This document shows, piece by piece, positions 8,721-63,740 of a stretch of 64,000 bases of DNA. The notes under the pieces were generated by a model. It saw only the letters and a program-made list of their open reading frames with translations, made no database searches and was not told the origin of the DNA. Every line of letters begins with the position of its first letter. Position 1 is the first letter of the stretch. Source of the stretch: Eunapius fragilis (Eukaryota > Porifera > Demospongiae > Spongillida > Spongillidae); assembly GCA_963681505.1 (NCBI GenBank), contig OY811987.1:2728124-2792123 (forward strand), written 5' to 3'. A program made the translations under genes and the position numbers.

Positions 8721-8835
8721 CAACTCAGTATGTTCCACTACCATACCACTCTAGTTCAGAACATTAGGGTCATTAGATTGGTGCTTCCTTCAGTCTGTGG
8801 CCTGGGCAGCAGCAGTGGCCAACACTCCTGATCCC

Positions 8836-12985
<4,150 letters not shown>

Positions 12986-15900
12986 ATTCCGACGGCGAGG
13001 TGGACTGGAATACATTTGGAAACATCCTGACAGGAGAGCTCCTTGGACAGGTGTGTAAACTGACGCCGTCGAGGCTTTTGTTCTGTGCTGTTACCTTGGT
13101 GAACTCGCGCGTAAAAAAAAATGGAGTTGTATATCCATTGCAGTGTATGCCAGACAACTGCCTATTGCCTGTTTGTGTTTGTTTACTTTTAGCGTTTTGC
13201 CTATCATGAAAATTAGTGTGATGTCATTTCATCCATGTTGTATCGACATATTGATTTGGACGCTTTCACTATAGATCCATTGTGCGTCCTTTCTGGATCC
13301 TTTGTACGGATCGAAGCAGCGAGGGCTGATACCTGAGACAAACTGGGAGTGAGTTACTAAATATTGCAGGCGGGGACATATACCCTCTGGCTATTCATTT
13401 GAGAAGTAATTATACGTAAACAGATGCCCAGCGTGATCACTTTTAATTAACACGTCACACCTGAATTGCCTTTCCCAGGCTCAGCCAACTCCCAGTTAAA
13501 TGACGTGGACAGTACCTCACAGTGGTGTCAATGAGGTAGTGCTGTGGTGTGACAAATGAAAGATGTAAATGTATGGCTAGAAAATTCGGTGCCCTAAAAC
13601 TCCACAAAGAATGGGCCATTCCTTTAAGCATAAAATATTTTGGTGAGGGAGAAGGAGGCATTTTACAAGCTGATTAGATGTTTCGATATTATCCTTAGTT
13701 ATAAATTTCAAAAAGGCAACATGGTTAAAATGTTGTGGGCTCAAAGCAGACTGGGGTGGTTGTTTTTATTTACTTTTATTTTCAAAGGCCTTTGCGATAA
13801 TTTTGGAGGCATACAGATCAATGTATGAGATGAATACAACAGAACACTCACGATGAGCATGTACCAACATGTACATACGGCATGAATATGCTGCTAACTA
13901 AATGTGCTAGTGATTGTCGCGGTCCTATGTCTTCTAGGACAAACCTTGCATGCAAGGCTTGCACACCGAATTAGCAGAAGTTATATGTAAACTACATAAC
14001 CCTGCCCAACAAGATTCCTTAGTACATGGATACGCATCCTAAAAATGCTAGCGCAGAACACAACACATCTAATGAGATGTATGTAGAAATGTGATGCGTC
14101 ATGTTGTGTTACATAATGTCCACGTCATTTAACTGGAAACAACACTACCACTGCGGTTACCTACAGAAATCACACCCACACTGTTCTGCGCACAAACGAT
14201 TATGCTTTCACAGCTACTTTTGCTCAGGCAGAACTTTTGATGTCCATTGTAACTGCATACCACTTGATTACTTGTACATAATACCCATCCCGGCCTTTTT
14301 CACAAATTAGAACACACCGCCCACGTACACAGTCAGAGGATTAATGATTGCTCTGGTTCACTACATTTATTGATTGTGTACATTCTGCTAGGTATGTTGG
14401 GACCAAGCACAACATAGTCATCTTGAAGAAGAGGGTGGAGGGAACCTCTCTGGATAGGTACATGTGAATGTGCAGTGGTGTGCCATGATGTTGAATGTCA
14501 AGCACTTTTCAAGGGACTAAAACATGTGTCCATTGCAGCTTCATGGGTCGAGGTGTCATCGACTTCCCCATAGGAAGAGTTGCTCAGTATATTGGCAACA
14601 TGGAACAGACGCACCTCTGGGAACGGTACCTTGCGGTAGGTACACCCTCTCTCTGACATGTGTATGGTGCAGAAATATTTAATAACTCCCCGCACACATA
14701 GATGCATACATATACACCATCAATGAGTCACATGCCATACTTCACTTTCCCTGGGGTACAGTATGTCTTGGGTAATGAATATTTCAGTCCTTGCTCTTGA
14801 TCTCGTCTGTATGCGATGACAAGGTGGCAGGGTAGATGGGGTAATAATACTCAATTTTTTACTCACTGCAAAAAAGAAATCTACTAAAGCATCAATTGAA
14901 AGCCCTACCTCCCTGAAAGATAAATGGCTTGTTTAAACATGCATATTTCCGTAAATGTGAATCCTTTCATGAATGTTCTGTACAATAAAATGGTATTTCC
15001 ACATGATTTAGAAAAAGGTACACCAAAGCATTCATGGCTATGGACATATGCACATTTAAACATGAACTCCCTCCCCTCCCCAATGTGCTCCAATCTCTGC
15101 CACTCCAGAAGTTAAAGGGTTCAGGGTGGTTTGCCATATTTTAAGCCATTGCTTTCACTTACGCCATCATAGCAGAAAATTAAAAAGTACCCCCCCTCCC
15201 TCCCCCCTTCAATTACATTTAGCGGGCGTACATGTACATATCATTAATCAGTGCCTGGATGATGTGGTGAAAAATACATTAGACAACTGCTTACATTGTA
15301 ACATATAAGGCTTTTTGTTTTAATTTCATTTTGAGGGTGGATTGCATTTTATTTACAGCATGTACTCCCTGGGGTAGAGCATGTACTCCCTGGAGTACAG
15401 CATCATTCAGCACGGCTTTGAATATCACTGTGGGCTGTATGTGAATTGTGTGTCATTGTTGTAACTGCATTAAAAGTGGAGTGTTATATGCTGAGAGTTT
15501 TGCGTGTTGTTTGCTATTCCTTTAGGATATCAGGTGTATAAAGCAGCTGTCTGAGGATAATGGAGACACTATAGGTGACTGTGACGCTTCTGAGTGTCAT
15601 ACCTGTTGCTTAGTACATCAAATTGCAGTGTACAGACGCTACCAAGCCACTGCATGCCTTATGAATTTCGAAGCTGATTTTGTTTACTACTTGAGGTCTA
15701 AATTTCATGTACGTCTTGCTGAAGGTTGTATGGGGTGACATTGCTTTGCTTTACAGGGTGAACAGTTTGTGCATACTGCAGCATCTGTGAGTGACATGTT
15801 TTATCCACCAACACCAGGAGTGTTTAGAGGAAAGGTGGGCACTTTAACTGTATTATTCTACACAGTGTCTTTTGATTTGACATTAAATGTTATTGTTATG

Positions 15901-17740
15901 AATTCAGGCTTTATAGCACTAAAAATGTTTGGGAATATAGATTTAGGGTGTAAGATGTGTGGTTTAGCAAATTTGTCCAAGGGGATAGCAATAAATTCCT
16001 GCCTTAATGTTACATGCATTGTACATTGCCTTACACATTAATTCTATCCGATCTATTGAGCTCTGGATATCTGATCTCAAGTAACCTTGCTAAAAATGTT
16101 TTGGCAATAAAATAAGGGTATCTTTCATGAAGCTTATCTACCATAAAATTGTGTTTCCTTCCATATCCTTTCTGACCTACTTACAGTCCGCTCTTGATAT
16201 AAGCGTAACATTTGCGCTGTTCTACCATGCACTCTTAAACCGGGTACCATATGAATGTATAATATTAGTGTATAGGTAAATAGTGGCCAGAATCTATATA
16301 AGCTGTAGTCTTAAATAGTGTAGCTAGCTGCAAGAACACCCTGTGCTCATTCTCTGTAAATACATTCACATTGTCTCTTAATAAGTGGCATAGGTTAGAG
16401 GGGCACTGTGCTTTGTCTCATTTACAGAAACAGTTTGAGGTTCTATGTTATTGGAGTCAGGCTAGTCAATGTTTGCTATTACTAGCCCCCCCTCTCTGCA
16501 CTTCTTATCTCTACCCCTGCCTATAATAAAACGTTTTCAATGGGTCCTTTAAAATTTTCAGTGATGCTCTACCTGTATGTGCTAGTATGAGTCTGACAAA
16601 TCAGTATCGAATTACTTATAATGCTGATGTGGTTCACTTAACCATTGTTTTATGAGTGCCCCTGTATTAGTTATTACAGCTACACATGAACATAACAGCC
16701 TGAAATGTCGATATTGAATCAGTAGTGTAATCGGGACTATGACCAGTAAAAGCATAACTGTTTCATAAATTACTTTATTATCATCACAACCTTCTTTTGC
16801 ATTTTCCATACCATTTCTATCGGTGAAAACCTATTTATAGGGTCTAAAATTTTCACTACCAGAAGTGCAAAGTTTGCAAGCTCATTGGGTTTGAATTCCA
16901 TGGTATCTCAAGTTACTGTAGGCATGTCATACATGTAAATGCATCAATATACATATAGATGATATTTTTTGTTCAAATCATTGTTATCCATTGCGAGGAT
17001 ATTGATGTGCAAAGGTCTTATCCAATTTTAAGTCTGTAAAACAGCCTGAAGGTACCAGAAGGGTTCTATTATGTGTATTGTGAGAAACTATAACCACCAC
17101 AAGCCCATATGTAATTTTAACCCACAAAGGTATTGCTGGACACTGTCCCATGTTGTTAGACATTGTGTCTGCACTCTGCATGCACATCTTGTGATGTAAA
17201 TAAATACCCTGTTTATAAATGTGAAACCATTGGATAGATGCTTCCAGGGTCAGGGCATGTGCTCGAGCCATACATGGGAGATCCCAACAGGACATTGGTC
17301 ACCTACATGGCAGCTGTAAGTCCTTCTACTCTACTGATGTCAGTGCAGACATTGCTTTTATTTTGCTGTACATTATGAGGTGTGTGCATAGAGATATCTA
17401 TATCATAATTTTATGCAGGTTTCAATTGATGGAGTTCCAGCGATTGCCACAAACAAAGTGATACAAAACCTCTCTATCAGTACCCACTATCTGAATAAAC
17501 ACTTGAAGAGGATCTGGATCATTCCGCATGACCAGGCTCATACCGAAAGTAATGGTGGCTCTGAACATCTGTCAAAACTTGTGAATGATGCTGGCAATTC
17601 AGACATGGATGATTTCAATGATCAAAGGGAAAATGAAATCGAGATACAAGCATCGATGATGAGCTCTTCTGACATTGAATGTAGACATGAAGAAATTCAA
17701 GAGGGCAGAAATTGCATCGAGACGCATCAAGTTCCTGATT
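12986..17740 (+). CDS. START domain unit A (first half of probable double-START gene)
   Basis: Nine exons with matching phases: 12986-13050, 13275-13348, 14392-14457, 14539-14635, 15526-15574, 15629-15708, 15757-15834, 17238-17315 and 17419-17740. They give about 303 residues. START hallmarks in order are EVDWNTFGNIL, KHNIVILKKR, LWERYLA, ADFVYYLRS, a GSGHVLEPY / TLVTYMAA segment, then VSIDGVPAIATNKVI as the C-terminal helix. START domains form a helix-grip pocket that carries sterols, phospholipids or ceramide between membranes; the ligand here cannot be told. An acidic Ser/Glu-rich tail of about 80 residues follows. The last exon can read to a stop at 17767-17769, or splice at a GTACGT donor (17741) into unit B, which keeps frame. 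The N-terminal exon is missing. Confidence 0.8.
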
Positions 17741-17857
17741 GTACGTTTCATCTTGAAGCATGGCTATAGTGAGGGGTGGGGGAGCATTATTTACAACATC
17801 CAGAGATAGCCCCGTACTGATTTCGTAGTAATAATTCATGTTCTGTATTATCATAAG

Positions 17858-19214
17858 ATCTGTACAAGAATGGGGAGGTGGACTGGGATGTACTTGGAGA
17901 GGAAATCACCAGACGTACTCTACAAGAGGTGGAAAGTTTTAGAGCAGTAGATGTGAAGTATGGAAGTGGCACAACAGTGCCTCAACACAAGAATCAATGG
18001 AGGTGAAATGTTTGTAATCCATTGAATTTTATGACTAAATGTCATGTCTGAACAGATTTGTGTTTGAAAAGCATGATGTGGTTGTTTACACACAGAAGCA
18101 AGATAACTCAACCATTGATTGGTGTGTTAGTGTGTTGTTGGCAACTAGTTAGATTATTGACAAAGTTATGATCTGACAGTTTTCTTGGCTGTGGTGTTGT
18201 GGATGCACCAATGAAAGTGGTGAGTGACTTTCTCCAAGATATTCAGTCCACCTTTTCATGGGATAATACCGTTACCGTGAGTTCAACATACATGTACAAC
18301 CTTGCACTTCAAAACTAAATTTATTATCCCACTATATCCATCTGTAACAGGATGCACAGTATGTGAAAGTGATACAAAAGTCACGAACCCGTACAGATTT
18401 TATCAGTAAATGCCTAAACCTGTGCACACATACTGTGCACATTTGTTCTCCTCCCAATTCTCCCTCCACTCCCTCTCCCTCCACTGCCCCTTCTCCACTC
18501 ATACACTCAGCATGCCTGAATTATGAGACCACTAAGTGTTTGGTCCATGCCAAGAGAGAAAACCTCAGCTTTGTGCGATGCGTTTTGACTGTACGTTATC
18601 AGCAGATGTCAATGACATTGCAAGATTGGTCACTAACTGTTATGCGTCTGTTGCAAACAGGATGAAAAGTTTGTAATGAGTGCAATATCTGTTGAACACC
18701 CAGATTGCCCACCTCCCCCAGATACTACCAGAGTTAAGGTAAACTTACTGAAATAACAATCATATGCACCTGTGTCCCCCCCCCCCCCAACACACACACA
18801 CACCTTTGAATTACATTTTCCCAGGTATACTCGGGATCAGGCTGGGTAATGGAGCCATATCGTGGAAGTGAGACACAGACCTTGGTCACTTACTTGGCTC
18901 ATGTTGGTGGAGTACATTTTTGTTGTCACCTCTGGGCCTGCCTCTCAACAACTCGTATTTCCTTCCTTTTTTTACAGGTGGATCTGATGGGTCTTCCATC
19001 GGTGATAGCAAACTACGTGCTCAGGAGCTACCCACTTGCTGTGCACTATGTCCGACTACACCTTCCCCCTCCACCTCATGACACTGCTGCCACCTCCTAC
19101 TATCCTAACACCGGTGCGGCTGTGGGCAATAGTGAGCCCATTGCCCTGCTGTCTGATATAGGGCAGAGATTGAACAAAGGGTGGAGCATTAGTGGCTGGA
19201 ACAATGCCACATGA
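17858..19214 (+). CDS. START domain unit B (second half of probable double-START gene)
   Basis: Eight exons: 17858-18002, 18056-18121, 18180-18270, 18351-18405, 18511-18590, 18661-18738, 18825-18902 and 18978-19214 (TGA stop). All join in frame. Motifs in order are GEVDWDVLGEEI, FEKHDVVVYTQKQ, GVVDAPMKVVSDF, DEKFVMSAISVEHP, GSGWVMEPYRG, TLVTYLAHV, and GLPSVIANYVLRSYPLAVHY. Exon lengths (66, 80, 78, 78) equal those of units A and C, so the three are duplicates. The first exon starts in phase 1 with no room for an upstream Met exon: only 88 bp separate it from the stop of unit A. This argues that A and B are one mRNA. The RCEFER-type core is changed to LNYETTKCLVHAKRENLSF, so the pocket may differ. 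Introns are only 53-105 bp. Confidence 0.8.
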
Positions 19215-19600: not shown

Positions 19601-20311
19601 ATGAAGATCCTTGTGGGGATCATAATCACACTCTTGTTTAACGGCGTCCTTTCACAAGGCAAGGTTCCCCCGTTGGTAGCGACCGAATTTACGGCCAATT
19701 TCATCCAAAATAAATTCAACCACAATGGCTTCGTGGTCAACCACACCTGCGCCGGTACTTACTATTCGAGCTACTCCCAACAGATGATACGAGCCGACTG
19801 CACAGTTGTAGACCTGAGCTCCAACAATCACAGCCAACCATCTCCGCTGACCAGCTTTGTTACCATCAGTCTGCTCGATTTTACGAAAAGTCCGCCTCTT
19901 AACACGGTGTTGAGCTTAGTTAACCTGGCTAACAAGTCTACTTGTGCTGTTTACGAGGCCAGTTGGTTGCCGCCCTTTTCGGCAACATTCCTCCGAGACG
20001 TCAACGCCATTTATGCTGGAAATGAAATAACGGAAGAGTACGGCGTATGCGAAAAGTGGACGTTTGTACTTGTCGAATTTCCTGGTCCCATATTTACCTT
20101 CTATTTTGATTCCTTTACGAATTTAGTGCGATATGACTTTTACGTCATCGGCGACCCTGAGCAAGGAAATGTGGGTGTGACAAACAAGTTCTACAACATA
20201 CAGACGGGTGACAAGACACTCCTACCGTCAACCATCTTCGATGGCTCTGGAAAGTGTCCACAGGAGAGCACCAAAGGCCACCCAACGAGCTCCCTGTCTA
20301 TGAAGTTATAA
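19601..20311 (+). CDS. Secreted protein, possibly ependymin-related, single exon
   Basis: The frame is open from 19568, but the start at 19601 gives a clean signal peptide (MKILVGIIITLLFNGVLSQ) and a 236-residue protein. Five cysteines remain in the mature chain, with several N-glycosylation sites. The order of a Cys-rich N-terminal strand (TCAGTYYSSYSQQMIRADC), a Cys followed by LPPFSATFLRDVNAIYAGNE, a YGVCEKW motif, and a final FYFDSFTNLVRYDFY strand resembles ependymin-related / LolA-like secreted proteins. Such proteins have a hydrophobic ligand pocket. The resemblance is by eye and weak, so the name is tentative. No introns are needed. A polyadenylation signal follows at 20362. It lies just downstream of the START gene on the same strand, but a shared function is not shown. 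Confidence 0.72.
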   Translation: MKILVGIIITLLFNGVLSQGKVPPLVATEFTANFIQNKFNHNGFVVNHTCAGTYYSSYSQQMIRADCTVVDLSSNNHSQPSPLTSFVTISLLDFTKSPPLNTVLSLVNLANKSTCAVYEASWLPPFSATFLRDVNAIYAGNEITEEYGVCEKWTFVLVEFPGPIFTFYFDSFTNLVRYDFYVIGDPEQGNVGVTNKFYNIQTGDKTLLPSTIFDGSGKCPQESTKGHPTSSLSMKL

Positions 20312-60764: not shown

Positions 60765-61513
60765 GAGCAAACGGTGATGTAGACTGGAAGACTCTTGGTA
60801 CGCTACTAACAGCTGATGTCCTGGGACAGGTGAGCACCCGCTGGTGACGGGTGTGAGAGGGATTCATGTTGTATGCACCTACCAAGAGGGCCTCTCTTTA
60901 TGAACAACATGTCATCCATAATGAGTAATGAACACAAATGTAGACCAAAAGGGTGGGGGAGGGGGGGGGGGGGGGGGGGAGGGGGGGGGCAGTGGGCATG
61001 TAAGCTATATGGTCACATGTTTCCTTTACAAAGGTCATTGAGGTGTCCTATGTAGACACACACTATGGACATCAACATCATCATCTTCAACCCAATACTG
61101 ACTGGGAGTGAGCAATGTATCTGTGCACCACATGCATGAACTGGGATGACCAGATGCATGAACTGGGATGACCAGATGCATGAACTGGGATGACCAGATG
61201 CATGAACTGGAATGACCAGATGCATGAACTGGGATGACCAGATGCATGAACTGGGATGACCAGATGCATGAACTGGAATGACCAGATGCATGAACTGGGA
61301 TGACCAGATGCATGAACTGGAATTGACCGCATGCATGAACTGGACTGACCAGATGCATGAACTGGACTGACCAGATGCATGAACTGGAATGACCAGATAC
61401 ATGAACTGGAATGACCAGATGCATGAACTTCTTAAGAGATGGGTGTGGTATGAAGTGTGATACTTCTGAGATGCTGTGCCAGTGAATGGTGATATTTGTA
61501 TCCATTTGCTGGT

Positions 61514-61554
<41 letters not shown>

Positions 61555-62094
61555 TGTGAGAGTGTGTGTATTGATCCACCCCATAAACATGTAGGTAAAT
61601 CCAACTTTCCTGTGAGCACTGTTATTGCTGACCCTACGTATTTTGATCATGCCACACACCTCAGATACCTCTATGAGGAGCACAACATTGTAGTGCTGAG
61701 GAAAAGAACATGTGTCCCTGGTGCATACTGGTATCTATCTGCAGTACATGTTAGCTAGACAGGCACATGAATACGAGTGTTCTTTCCCTAGGTACATGGG
61801 TCGCACGGTCCTAGACTGGTCGTTTGAAGAGCTTGCAACCTACTTGGACCATATTGAGTCTACCTACCAGTGGGACAGGCTTGTAAAGGTAGGGCTAGGT
61901 GGTGTGCATGTGGGTGCATGTGTGTGTGTGTGTGATGCATGTGCTCGTGGTTATGATATCTGCTAATAAATGTGCAGTGTGTCGTGTGATATCAAGTTTC
62001 AATATTAATCCAATGCTGCAATACGGCCACCATTCATACTGGTTCCCCCACCATGGCATGATGGTTGTGACTGTACATGTATGGTTGTGTAATG

Positions 62095-62150
<56 letters not shown>

Positions 62151-62251
62151 ATGTGTGTGTTTGTGTATGTGTGTGCATAACGTGCGAGTGTGTGCGTGCA
62201 TGTGTGTGTGTGTGCGTGTGTATGCATGTGTGGTATGTGTGTATGTATGTA

Positions 62252-62306
<55 letters not shown>

Positions 62307-63740
62307 TTGGCATGACTCCCTTATTTCCCTCTCTCTAAGGACACCAGGTATGTGGAGATACTCAACGGATGTGAGGACCGCCGTGATGCCATAGGTTTGT
62401 TGTTGTGGCCGGCAGAAGCACGCCCATATAGTCACATTCCCTTGTCAATTTACCATCACAGTGTATCGACGCTGCGAGTTTGAGCGATGTTTCTTGTACA
62501 AGTCCAAAGTTGACTTTGTCTACTTTGTTCGTTCAACTCACCACGTAAGTGATTTCAATTGTCTTCCTTTTTTTTCGTTCACGGCCCCACCACCTGTGCC
62601 ACACCCATGCCACAATCTCCACACACACACGTGCACCCCACATGACCCATCCTCAGGACGGGAAGTTTGTCAGAGCAGTGCTATCTGTTGACCACACAAA
62701 CTACCCAGCACTAGATGGGATAACCAGAGGAAAGGTAATCTGTCCATACATATGCCTTTTGACTTCTTGCTAATTTAACCGCTTGGTGCCATGCTATTAG
62801 CGTAATAGGACCTAACCACCCCTACCACATTAGAGTGCAATGACCTTACCCATTTTTAGGTTAAGCTGCCTACGTGTGAGTGTGTTTGCTTCTGTTAGTT
62901 CCTTGCAGGTACAGGTATTGTGCTGGAGCCGTACAGAAACAATCGCTCCAGGACATTGGTCAGCTACTCATTTAATGTAAGTGCTGCTTGCAAAATATTT
63001 GGCCTGGCAGTGGCTGGGCCCCTGGGCACTGCATGGCCTAGGCCCCTGGGCACTGCATGGCCTGGGCACTGCATGGCCTGGGCCCCTGGGCACTGCATGG
63101 CCTGGGTACTGCATGGTCTGGGCACTGCATGGCCTGGGTACTGCATGGCCTGGGTACTGCATGGCCTGGGCACTGCATGGCCTGGGCACTGCATGGCCTG
63201 GGCACTGCATGGCCTGGGCACTGCATGGCCGCAGATGTGCTTTATCTGTACATTGCGTTCACATGCTTTTGTGAGGTCTACAATGTTGTCAACATGATAT
63301 AGTTAATTAACCATTTTAAATTTGTGGTGTCAGCTCTTTGCAAGAAAGCAACACCATCACATGTCACCCAGGTCATACAAATCCTCACCTAGGTTACCGT
63401 TGAAGGACTGCCCTCCATTTTTGTCAACATGGCACTGAGGAAGGTACCATTGTCCATCCGCCACATTGAGCCGCAGCACCACAGGAGCAATGGGCACTCC
63501 ATGTGTGGGCTGCACGTGGGTGACCTATCGGAGGAACATGGGGAGGGGGAGGAGGACGTGCCCCTGAACCCTTCCCCAACCCCAAGGGTGTCCAGGAGTG
63601 AGCTCTACGAAGACTCTGAGCCACTCGTCATGTTCACCAGACCAGTGGGCGCCGAAGATGCTGGGGTGTCCATTGCAACCTCTGGAAGCATGTCACATAC
63701 ACCGCAGGCTGGGTCTGTGGATGCAACCTGTAGGCAGTAG
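60765..63740 (+). CDS. START domain protein, unit C
   Basis: Nine exons, all phases consistent: 60765-60829, 61034-61107, 61665-61730, 61792-61888, 62340-62394, 62462-62544, 62657-62734, 62899-62976 and 63393-63740 (TAG stop). They give about 313 residues without the N-terminal exon. Motifs in order are GDVDWKTLGTLLTADVLGQ, YEEHNIVVLRKR, YQWDRLVKDTRYVEIL, KVDFVYFVRS, VRAVLSVDHTNYP, GTGIVLEPYR, TLVSYSFNV and GLPSIFVNMALRKVPLSI. This is a complete START lipid-binding domain. The tail of about 90 residues is acidic and Ser/Pro-rich, with no membrane segment, so the protein is probably cytosolic. Exon sizes 65, 74, 66, 97, 78, 78 are identical to unit A, showing common origin. Several introns carry minisatellites. 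Confidence 0.87.
60958..60990. repeat. Poly-G tract in intron 1 of START C
   Basis: Two G runs separated by single A residues. Confidence 0.9.
61130..61430. repeat. 22-bp minisatellite in intron 2 of START C
   Basis: About 13 units of ATGCATGAACTGGGATGACC plus AG, with small changes (GGGA/GGAA/GGAC). The Ser-Ser-Cys-Ile-Trp frame on minus is an artefact. Confidence 0.95.
62097..62303. repeat. (GT)n microsatellites in intron 4 of START C
   Basis: Two long GT runs (62097-62149 and about 62257-62303) with a mixed GT/GC/AT stretch between them. Confidence 0.95.
63005..63235. repeat. 16-bp minisatellite in intron 8 of START C
   Basis: Units of CCTGGGCACTGCATGG repeated, with early units carrying an extra GGCCC. 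Confidence 0.95.

Follow-up and report, generated by a model that had tools for sequence, protein, structure and literature searches.

In the freshwater sponge Eunapius fragilis, a window of 64,000 bases from chromosome 17 (C17:2728124-2792123, the whole stretch of DNA analysed here) holds a run of exons on the forward strand that we read as one gene encoding two START domains in tandem. Our final model extends from 12902 to 19214 (positions are those of the window unless prefixed by a chromosome), has 18 exons, and is open from the initiating methionine (Met) to the stop, giving a protein of 590 residues. START A occupies residues of about 10-238, a linker 239-313, START B 314-541 and a tail 542-590. 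To judge from the genomic sequence, this is very probably a single gene with a single protein product, in which an acidic and probably disordered linker separates the two domains. The copy in the window is called w throughout, and its relatives elsewhere on the chromosome carry numbers such as c4. An initial annotation of this DNA had proposed that one transcript, lying within 12986-19214, probably encodes two tandem START domains. The open joined frame and the paralogous copies support that proposal at the level of DNA, and its "probably" remains apt. Both START units do lie inside the proposed span; its left end, 12986, is the start of the second coding exon, and a Met exon precedes it.

Exons and domains of the probable double gene

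Coding begins at 12902-12929 with an exon of 28 nucleotides (nt) that specifies MALTIDLPH, ends in phase 1 (CACA, followed by the donor GTGAGA) and is separated from the next exon by an intron of 56 base pairs (bp). It was found in a conserved stretch of the alignment between w and c4, where, as read by eye, the nine residues of c4 are identical and its codons differ by three synonymous changes. A 28-nt Met exon stands in the same place in all five modelled copies that carry both units (MALTIDLPH, MALTIDLPH, MASAIDFPH, MSLSIDFPH and MALSIVFPH) and in c12, which has unit A only (MAFSIHFPH). Unit A then proceeds through exons A1 (12986-13050, entered in phase 1 and left in phase 0), A2 (13275-13348), A3 (14392-14457, 66 nt, phase 2 at both ends), A4 (14539-14635, 97 nt), A5 (15526-15574), A6 (15629-15708, 80 nt, donor GTACGT), A7 (15757-15834, 78 nt) and A8 (17238-17315, 78 nt). 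Exon A9 (17419-17740) supplies the C-terminal part of START A and then the acidic linker, and is left in phase 1. Across the junction intron (17741-17857) lies B1 (17858-18002), which is entered in phase 1 and has no Met of its own at the start, followed by B2 (18056-18121), B3 (18180-18276), B4a (18351-18405), B4b (18511-18590), B5 (18661-18738), B6 (18825-18902) and B7 (18978-19214), which ends in TGA. The two units have a set of exon lengths and phases in common (66, 97, 80, 78 and 78 nt): B2 matches A3 in length and phase, B3 matches A4, B4b has the 80 nt of A6, and B5 and B6 match A7 and A8.

Unit B departs at one point from the layout first proposed for it, in which 18351-18590 was a single exon. 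That interval holds a further intron of 105 bp at 18406-18510, which stays in frame and resembles an insert rich in proline and serine. We rejected such an insert, since allowing the intron removes a frameshift from the alignment with c4. Gene predictors could readily misread exon B4 in the same way, or split the double gene altogether.

For the assignment to START we used the Pfam model PF01852 and its cutoff of 22 bits. Unit A scores 27.8 bits (E 1.9e-6), above the cutoff; unit B scores 47 bits, and 56.4 bits (E 3.5e-15) once the extra intron is removed and the unit trimmed. The two are 27% identical to one another (E 1e-39). Trimmed to 229 and 228 residues, A and B fit the length of about 210 residues given for the family by a source (PMC3127847) that also describes a cavity under the C-terminal helix enclosing the lipid, and a family-wide tryptophan, Trp147 of STARD1, as its possible gatekeeper. 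The equivalent tryptophan is present at the aligned column in both A and B of w and in eight of the 10 sponge units aligned; in that alignment it is missing from unit B of c11 and from S2, a unit on chromosome 13 described below. Compared with solved structures, a profile of the ten units found StAR first (E 6e-14), then STARD4, STARD6, STARD5, STARD10 and CERT, and no subfamily of animal STARD proteins is clearly nearest to them. Neither unit keeps the acid/arginine pair of StAR (A by alignment with StAR, B by eye). A Pfam scan of the joined protein, at E values up to 0.01, returned no domain besides START, and inspection of the w protein by eye revealed no signal peptide, membrane span or anchor.

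The linker of w has 18 acidic and 4 basic residues among its 75 and is poor in hydrophobic ones. An FFAT-like motif, which might have served as a tether to the endoplasmic reticulum (ER), was considered as the loose pattern [DE][FY]x[DST], which we take to represent it. The pattern occurs in three of four linkers and also in 9-23% of shuffled linkers, so the motif is unsupported. At the other end of the protein, the tail after START B (window 19140-19199), IALLSDIGQRLNKGWSISGW, is identical in c4 and nearly so in c9; in c11 only its last part is alike. It is a possible conserved C-terminal motif.

Relatives on chromosome 17 and their history

We searched the whole genome, 218,937,333 bases in 24 contigs, of which chromosome 17 (C17) accounts for 6,313,071 and chromosome 13 (C13) for 7,354,498. 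The assembly is reported as 218.91 Mb, with 23 chromosomes, among them chromosomes 17 (6.31 Mb) and 13 (7.35 Mb), and a mitochondrial genome of 28.5 kb (PMC12616128). The protein search gave at least 87 matches; one was on C13, and the remaining 86 fell within the interval 2.58-3.05 Mb of C17. An exon-by-exon search of C17:2728124-2982000 found five copies with both units (w, c4, c9, c10 and c11), the A-type units c2, c3 and c12, and fragments at four places. The fragments are pieces of double copies, at C17:2824788-2826853, 2844900-2846038, 2880726-2881649 and, on the minus strand, 2816973; from these the array seems to gain and lose members. From the stop of c9 to the A1 acceptor of c10 there are 566 bp, and from the stop of c10 to that of c11 494 bp.

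The splice-aware models were queried with the w protein, so that agreement in w holds by construction and the paralogs are the test. In c4 the aligner recovers the same 18-exon structure. Four of the five double copies, each with 18 exons, can be read without interruption from Met to a single stop at the end and encode 590 (w), 590 (c4), 577 (c9) and 607 (c11) residues. All 68 introns of these models are GT-AG, as the aligner required.

Ratios of nonsynonymous to synonymous substitution (dN/dS) were obtained by a simple counting method from six pairs of intact copies, several of whose synonymous distances are saturated. Between w and c4 the ratio is 0.30 in START A, 0.40 in START B and 0.90 in the linker. 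Over the whole set it runs from 0.15 to 0.30 in START A (six of six pairs) and from 0.09 to 0.40 in START B (five of the six being computable). These values indicate that both START domains are under purifying selection.

Single-START members of the array also exist. The A-type gene c12 has one START, begins with a Met exon of its own that is left in phase 1, and stops at 2975336; the 6.6 kb searched beyond that stop yielded no B unit. The B-type gene c13 lies on the opposite strand at 3.05 Mb and has a Met exon of 52 nt, MASRDEAGLAGEVVVPH, which ends in phase 1, as both A1 and B1 require. In the roughly 6 kb upstream of it, no A unit was matched at an E value below 0.29. Its last exon is ambiguous: the aligner placed a donor inside it, and reading on instead leads to a stop and a protein of 289 residues. 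One doubtful aligner model of c13 ends with a peptide resembling the tail after START B. Within the window itself, c2 is an A-type START unit at 60770-63740 whose last exon runs to a stop; inspection by eye showed no Met exon in the preceding 400 bases, where there is a long TG repeat. Unit c3, which is similar, is found directly beyond the window.

A tree of 14 units has the four A units and the five B units each on one side of a branch supported at 100/99 (group table). It leaves out both units of c10 and the four fragment places, includes c3 in a short form (199 residues), and gives the first unit of the chromosome 13 locus, S1, a long branch and an unsure place. Because the A and B halves separate so strongly, the pair must have existed before the copies separated and been duplicated as a unit. 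The A-type c12 falls outside the four A units of double genes (100/99); for c13 the corresponding position, outside the four B units of those genes, is supported at only 78/87. Since c12 and c13 carry Met exons of their own, a fusion of neighbouring single-START genes is suggested, and such a fusion is probably what the pattern reflects. An A-type and a B-type gene of the array would have become neighbours, and splicing could then have linked a phase-1 donor within A's final exon to B. Alternatively, c13 may be a double gene that lost its A unit. Since the array contains four open double genes alongside one gene with unit A only and one with unit B only, a single genome may let a gene fusion be followed step by step. 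Outside this genome, peptide patterns gave 24 matches in genome contigs and 25 in viral contigs, at one or two patterns each, and none was confirmed as a relative.

The junction between units A and B

As first proposed, a 117-bp intron joins A to B: GT at 17741, AG ending at 17857, phase 1 on both sides and an open frame across the join. The count of 88 bases from the stop of A (17767-17769), which would end an A-only protein if the intron were kept, to the last base of the B acceptor is also right. In the double genes the distance from the A stop to B1 is 88 (w), 29 (c4), 134 (c9) and 171 bp (c11), as against the 566 and 494 bp between successive genes of the array given above, and the junction introns measure 117, 55, 172 and 257 bp, respectively; all fit phase 1. 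In c4, A9 ends in GATC before the donor GTATGT and B1 begins after CATAAG, so that the acceptor is the same as in w and the donor homologous. Between w and c4 the intron differs in length by 62 bp, which is no multiple of three, and the preceding exon by 12 nt. The A-only tails differ as well, CTFHLEAWL in w and RMFYHDIS in c4. Among 5,000 random AG sites the acceptor of w and c4 stands at the 64th percentile, and the w donor stands at the 94th percentile of random GT sites and the 34th of family introns.

We also searched the linker exons and gaps of w, c4, c9 and c11 for a start of B. In w, c4 and c11 no ATG reads unspliced in the B1 frame. Counted from the B1 acceptor, the first Met comes no earlier than residue 81 in w, c4 and c9, and no earlier than 184 in c11. 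All four copies have in-frame Mets in the linker, upstream of the junction donor. Candidate Met exons for B do occur, and their place and peptide vary between copies.

Several observations weigh against a single joined gene. The junction acceptor of w and c4 is weak, ranking at the 3rd percentile among 64 other introns of the family; by the same comparison the junction donor of c9 ranks at the 0th percentile and that of c11 at the 3rd. Both c9 and c11 hold other phase-1 GT sites, some of them with higher scores, and in both the junction sites were set by hand; the aligner had picked other sites, its choice in c9 carrying a frameshift. Also in c9, translation from an ATG at 2920259, which lies 46 bases upstream of the B1 acceptor, would run into B1 without splicing. 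ATGs in other frames are followed by phase-1 donors scoring 5.2 (w), 6.3 (c4) and 2.5 (c9), and the gap of c11 contains an ATG with a phase-1 donor scoring 5.1. The linker evolves almost freely, with dN/dS of 0.45-0.90 in the four of six pairs that could be computed, and all the copies come from one species. One double copy in five, c10, is damaged. It has a 2-bp deletion in exon B4a (from its alignment with c11; a frameshift in the model) and, if the homologous acceptor is used, a stop in B1, and it was left out of the set of four intact copies. Damage of this kind, together with the fragments at four places, would suit a tandem that is broken, or made by the assembly, and contains no working gene. 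That is highly improbable, given that four copies have open frames and that dN/dS lies well below 1 in each of the two domains.

The same observations bear on whether B has a start of its own. The c9 ATG and the ATGs with phase-1 donors make a separate or internal start of B compatible with the sequence. We therefore dropped the claim that nothing in the gap could start B. The earlier argument that B had no room for a first exon is mostly right for the gap; it overlooks the ATGs with phase-1 donors in the linker exon and gap, and B might also be reached through an alternative promoter within unit A or by skipping of unit A. Two adjacent genes, the first ending at 17767-17769 and the second transcribed from its own promoter, would account for the open A-only reading, the single A-type and B-type genes of the array, the weak acceptor, the unspliced ATG of c9 and the presence in all four copies of an ATG with a phase-1 donor in linker exon or gap. 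We nevertheless consider two genes unlikely. In the linker exon and gap, three of the four copies lack an unspliced ATG in the B1 frame, B would otherwise have to wait for a Met no earlier than residue 81 or 184, the candidate Met exons change place and peptide from copy to copy, only 29 bp are available in the gap of c4, and the A-only tail is not conserved. A minor point in the same direction is that no AATAAA or listed variant occurs between 17769 and 17857, which is weak, as the same scan finds only a GATAAA (19512) in the first 490 bp after the stop of B.

An operon-like transcript, split by trans-splicing of a spliced leader at the B1 acceptor, would suit the distance of 29-171 bp that separates this acceptor from the A stop in four copies. 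B1 is, however, entered in phase 1 and lacks a Met at its start, so that a leader lacking a Met could yield no full START, and we find this reading barely credible. One locus with several isoforms deserves more weight, as a real possibility that we would still bet against. Beside the double protein, it would make B alone, by splicing the Met exon to B1 or by starting at a linker Met, or A alone, by keeping the junction intron. A1 and B1 are both entered in phase 1, the phase in which the Met exon is left, so the frame would survive the skipping of A; the paralog c13 amounts to a Met exon joined to B; in-frame linker Mets exist in w, c4, c9 and c11; and a kept junction intron leads to a stop after about 8 codons. 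On the other side, none of our results requires several isoforms, and the A-only tail differs between copies. The single double-START product remains the reading we favour.

A probable protein with two START domains in one chain

Animal STARD proteins are not known to have more than one START each. Those that the profile comparison brought up (StAR/STARD1, STARD4, STARD5, STARD6, STARD10 and CERT) have the Pfam domain in common with the sponge protein; the sponge model differs from them in having two in one chain. If it is expressed as modelled, it would be an animal protein with two START domains in a single polypeptide. Among the matches listed in the open-access literature there is no paper on an animal double-START protein, which does not imply absence from print.

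Doubling as such has precedents. Yeast Lam2 (Ysp2) and Lam4 are described as having two StART-like domains per chain, and in Ysp2 both are reported to bind sterol (PMC4463742, PMC12705765). They are ER-anchored members of a StART-like family that is distantly related to START (PMC4463742). The sponge protein is like them in carrying two such domains in one chain, and unlike them in matching START itself and in having no anchor that we could see by eye. A VASt domain, a GRAM domain and a membrane anchor, the features of the Lam/LTC family, were not found in it, Pfam returning only START at E up to 0.01 and the anchor being judged by eye. In Medicago, the HD-Zip IV gene Mt.ctg127898_1 is reported as an exception with two START domains (PMC4226900); it too is double, but belongs to a plant homeodomain-leucine zipper family, and our comparison is by description only. 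Dimeric lipid transfer proteins such as CERT bring two START domains together in another way, two chains being described as dimerising through helices between the PH and START domains (PMC12377715), whereas the sponge protein has two different START domains in one chain. The PH domain that precedes START in CERT/STARD11 has no match in the joined protein, scanned without the nine residues of the Met exon. With the yeast and Medicago cases already known, the new part would be a START doubled within one chain in an animal.

The protein would most likely be cytosolic, with two separate lipid pockets on a flexible tether, and it might act as a two-site lipid carrier or sensor. With single and double forms in one array, the effect of a second lipid pocket could be tested directly.

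The single match on chromosome 13 leads to a second locus of interest. At C13:990671-994446 one long open frame contains a START match, S1 (E 1.1e-18), and after it come the exons of another START, S2 (E 9.6e-14), whose layout of 65, 68, 66, 97, 43, 80, 78 and 81 nt is like that of A and B. The start of S2 is in frame with S1, in phase 1, and several in-frame phase-1 donors lie between them. A short separate Met candidate for S2 is also present, and for this reason S1 and S2 are only a candidate double gene. It is tempting, though decidedly speculative, to suppose that sponge multi-START proteins arose more than once, through the fusion on chromosome 17 and the S1-S2 pair on chromosome 13, and that the two pockets of one chain may bind different lipids, which they would hand on or compare, while forms of all three kinds (single A, single B and A+B) coexist in one genome.

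Two further features flank w within the window. Just downstream, at 19601-20311, is an open frame of 236 residues with a signal-like start and no significant Pfam match. Upstream, at 8755-11547, about 2.7 kb of an AAGC-type repeat (as deduced from SKQA translations) is open in several frames, a gene-finder artefact.

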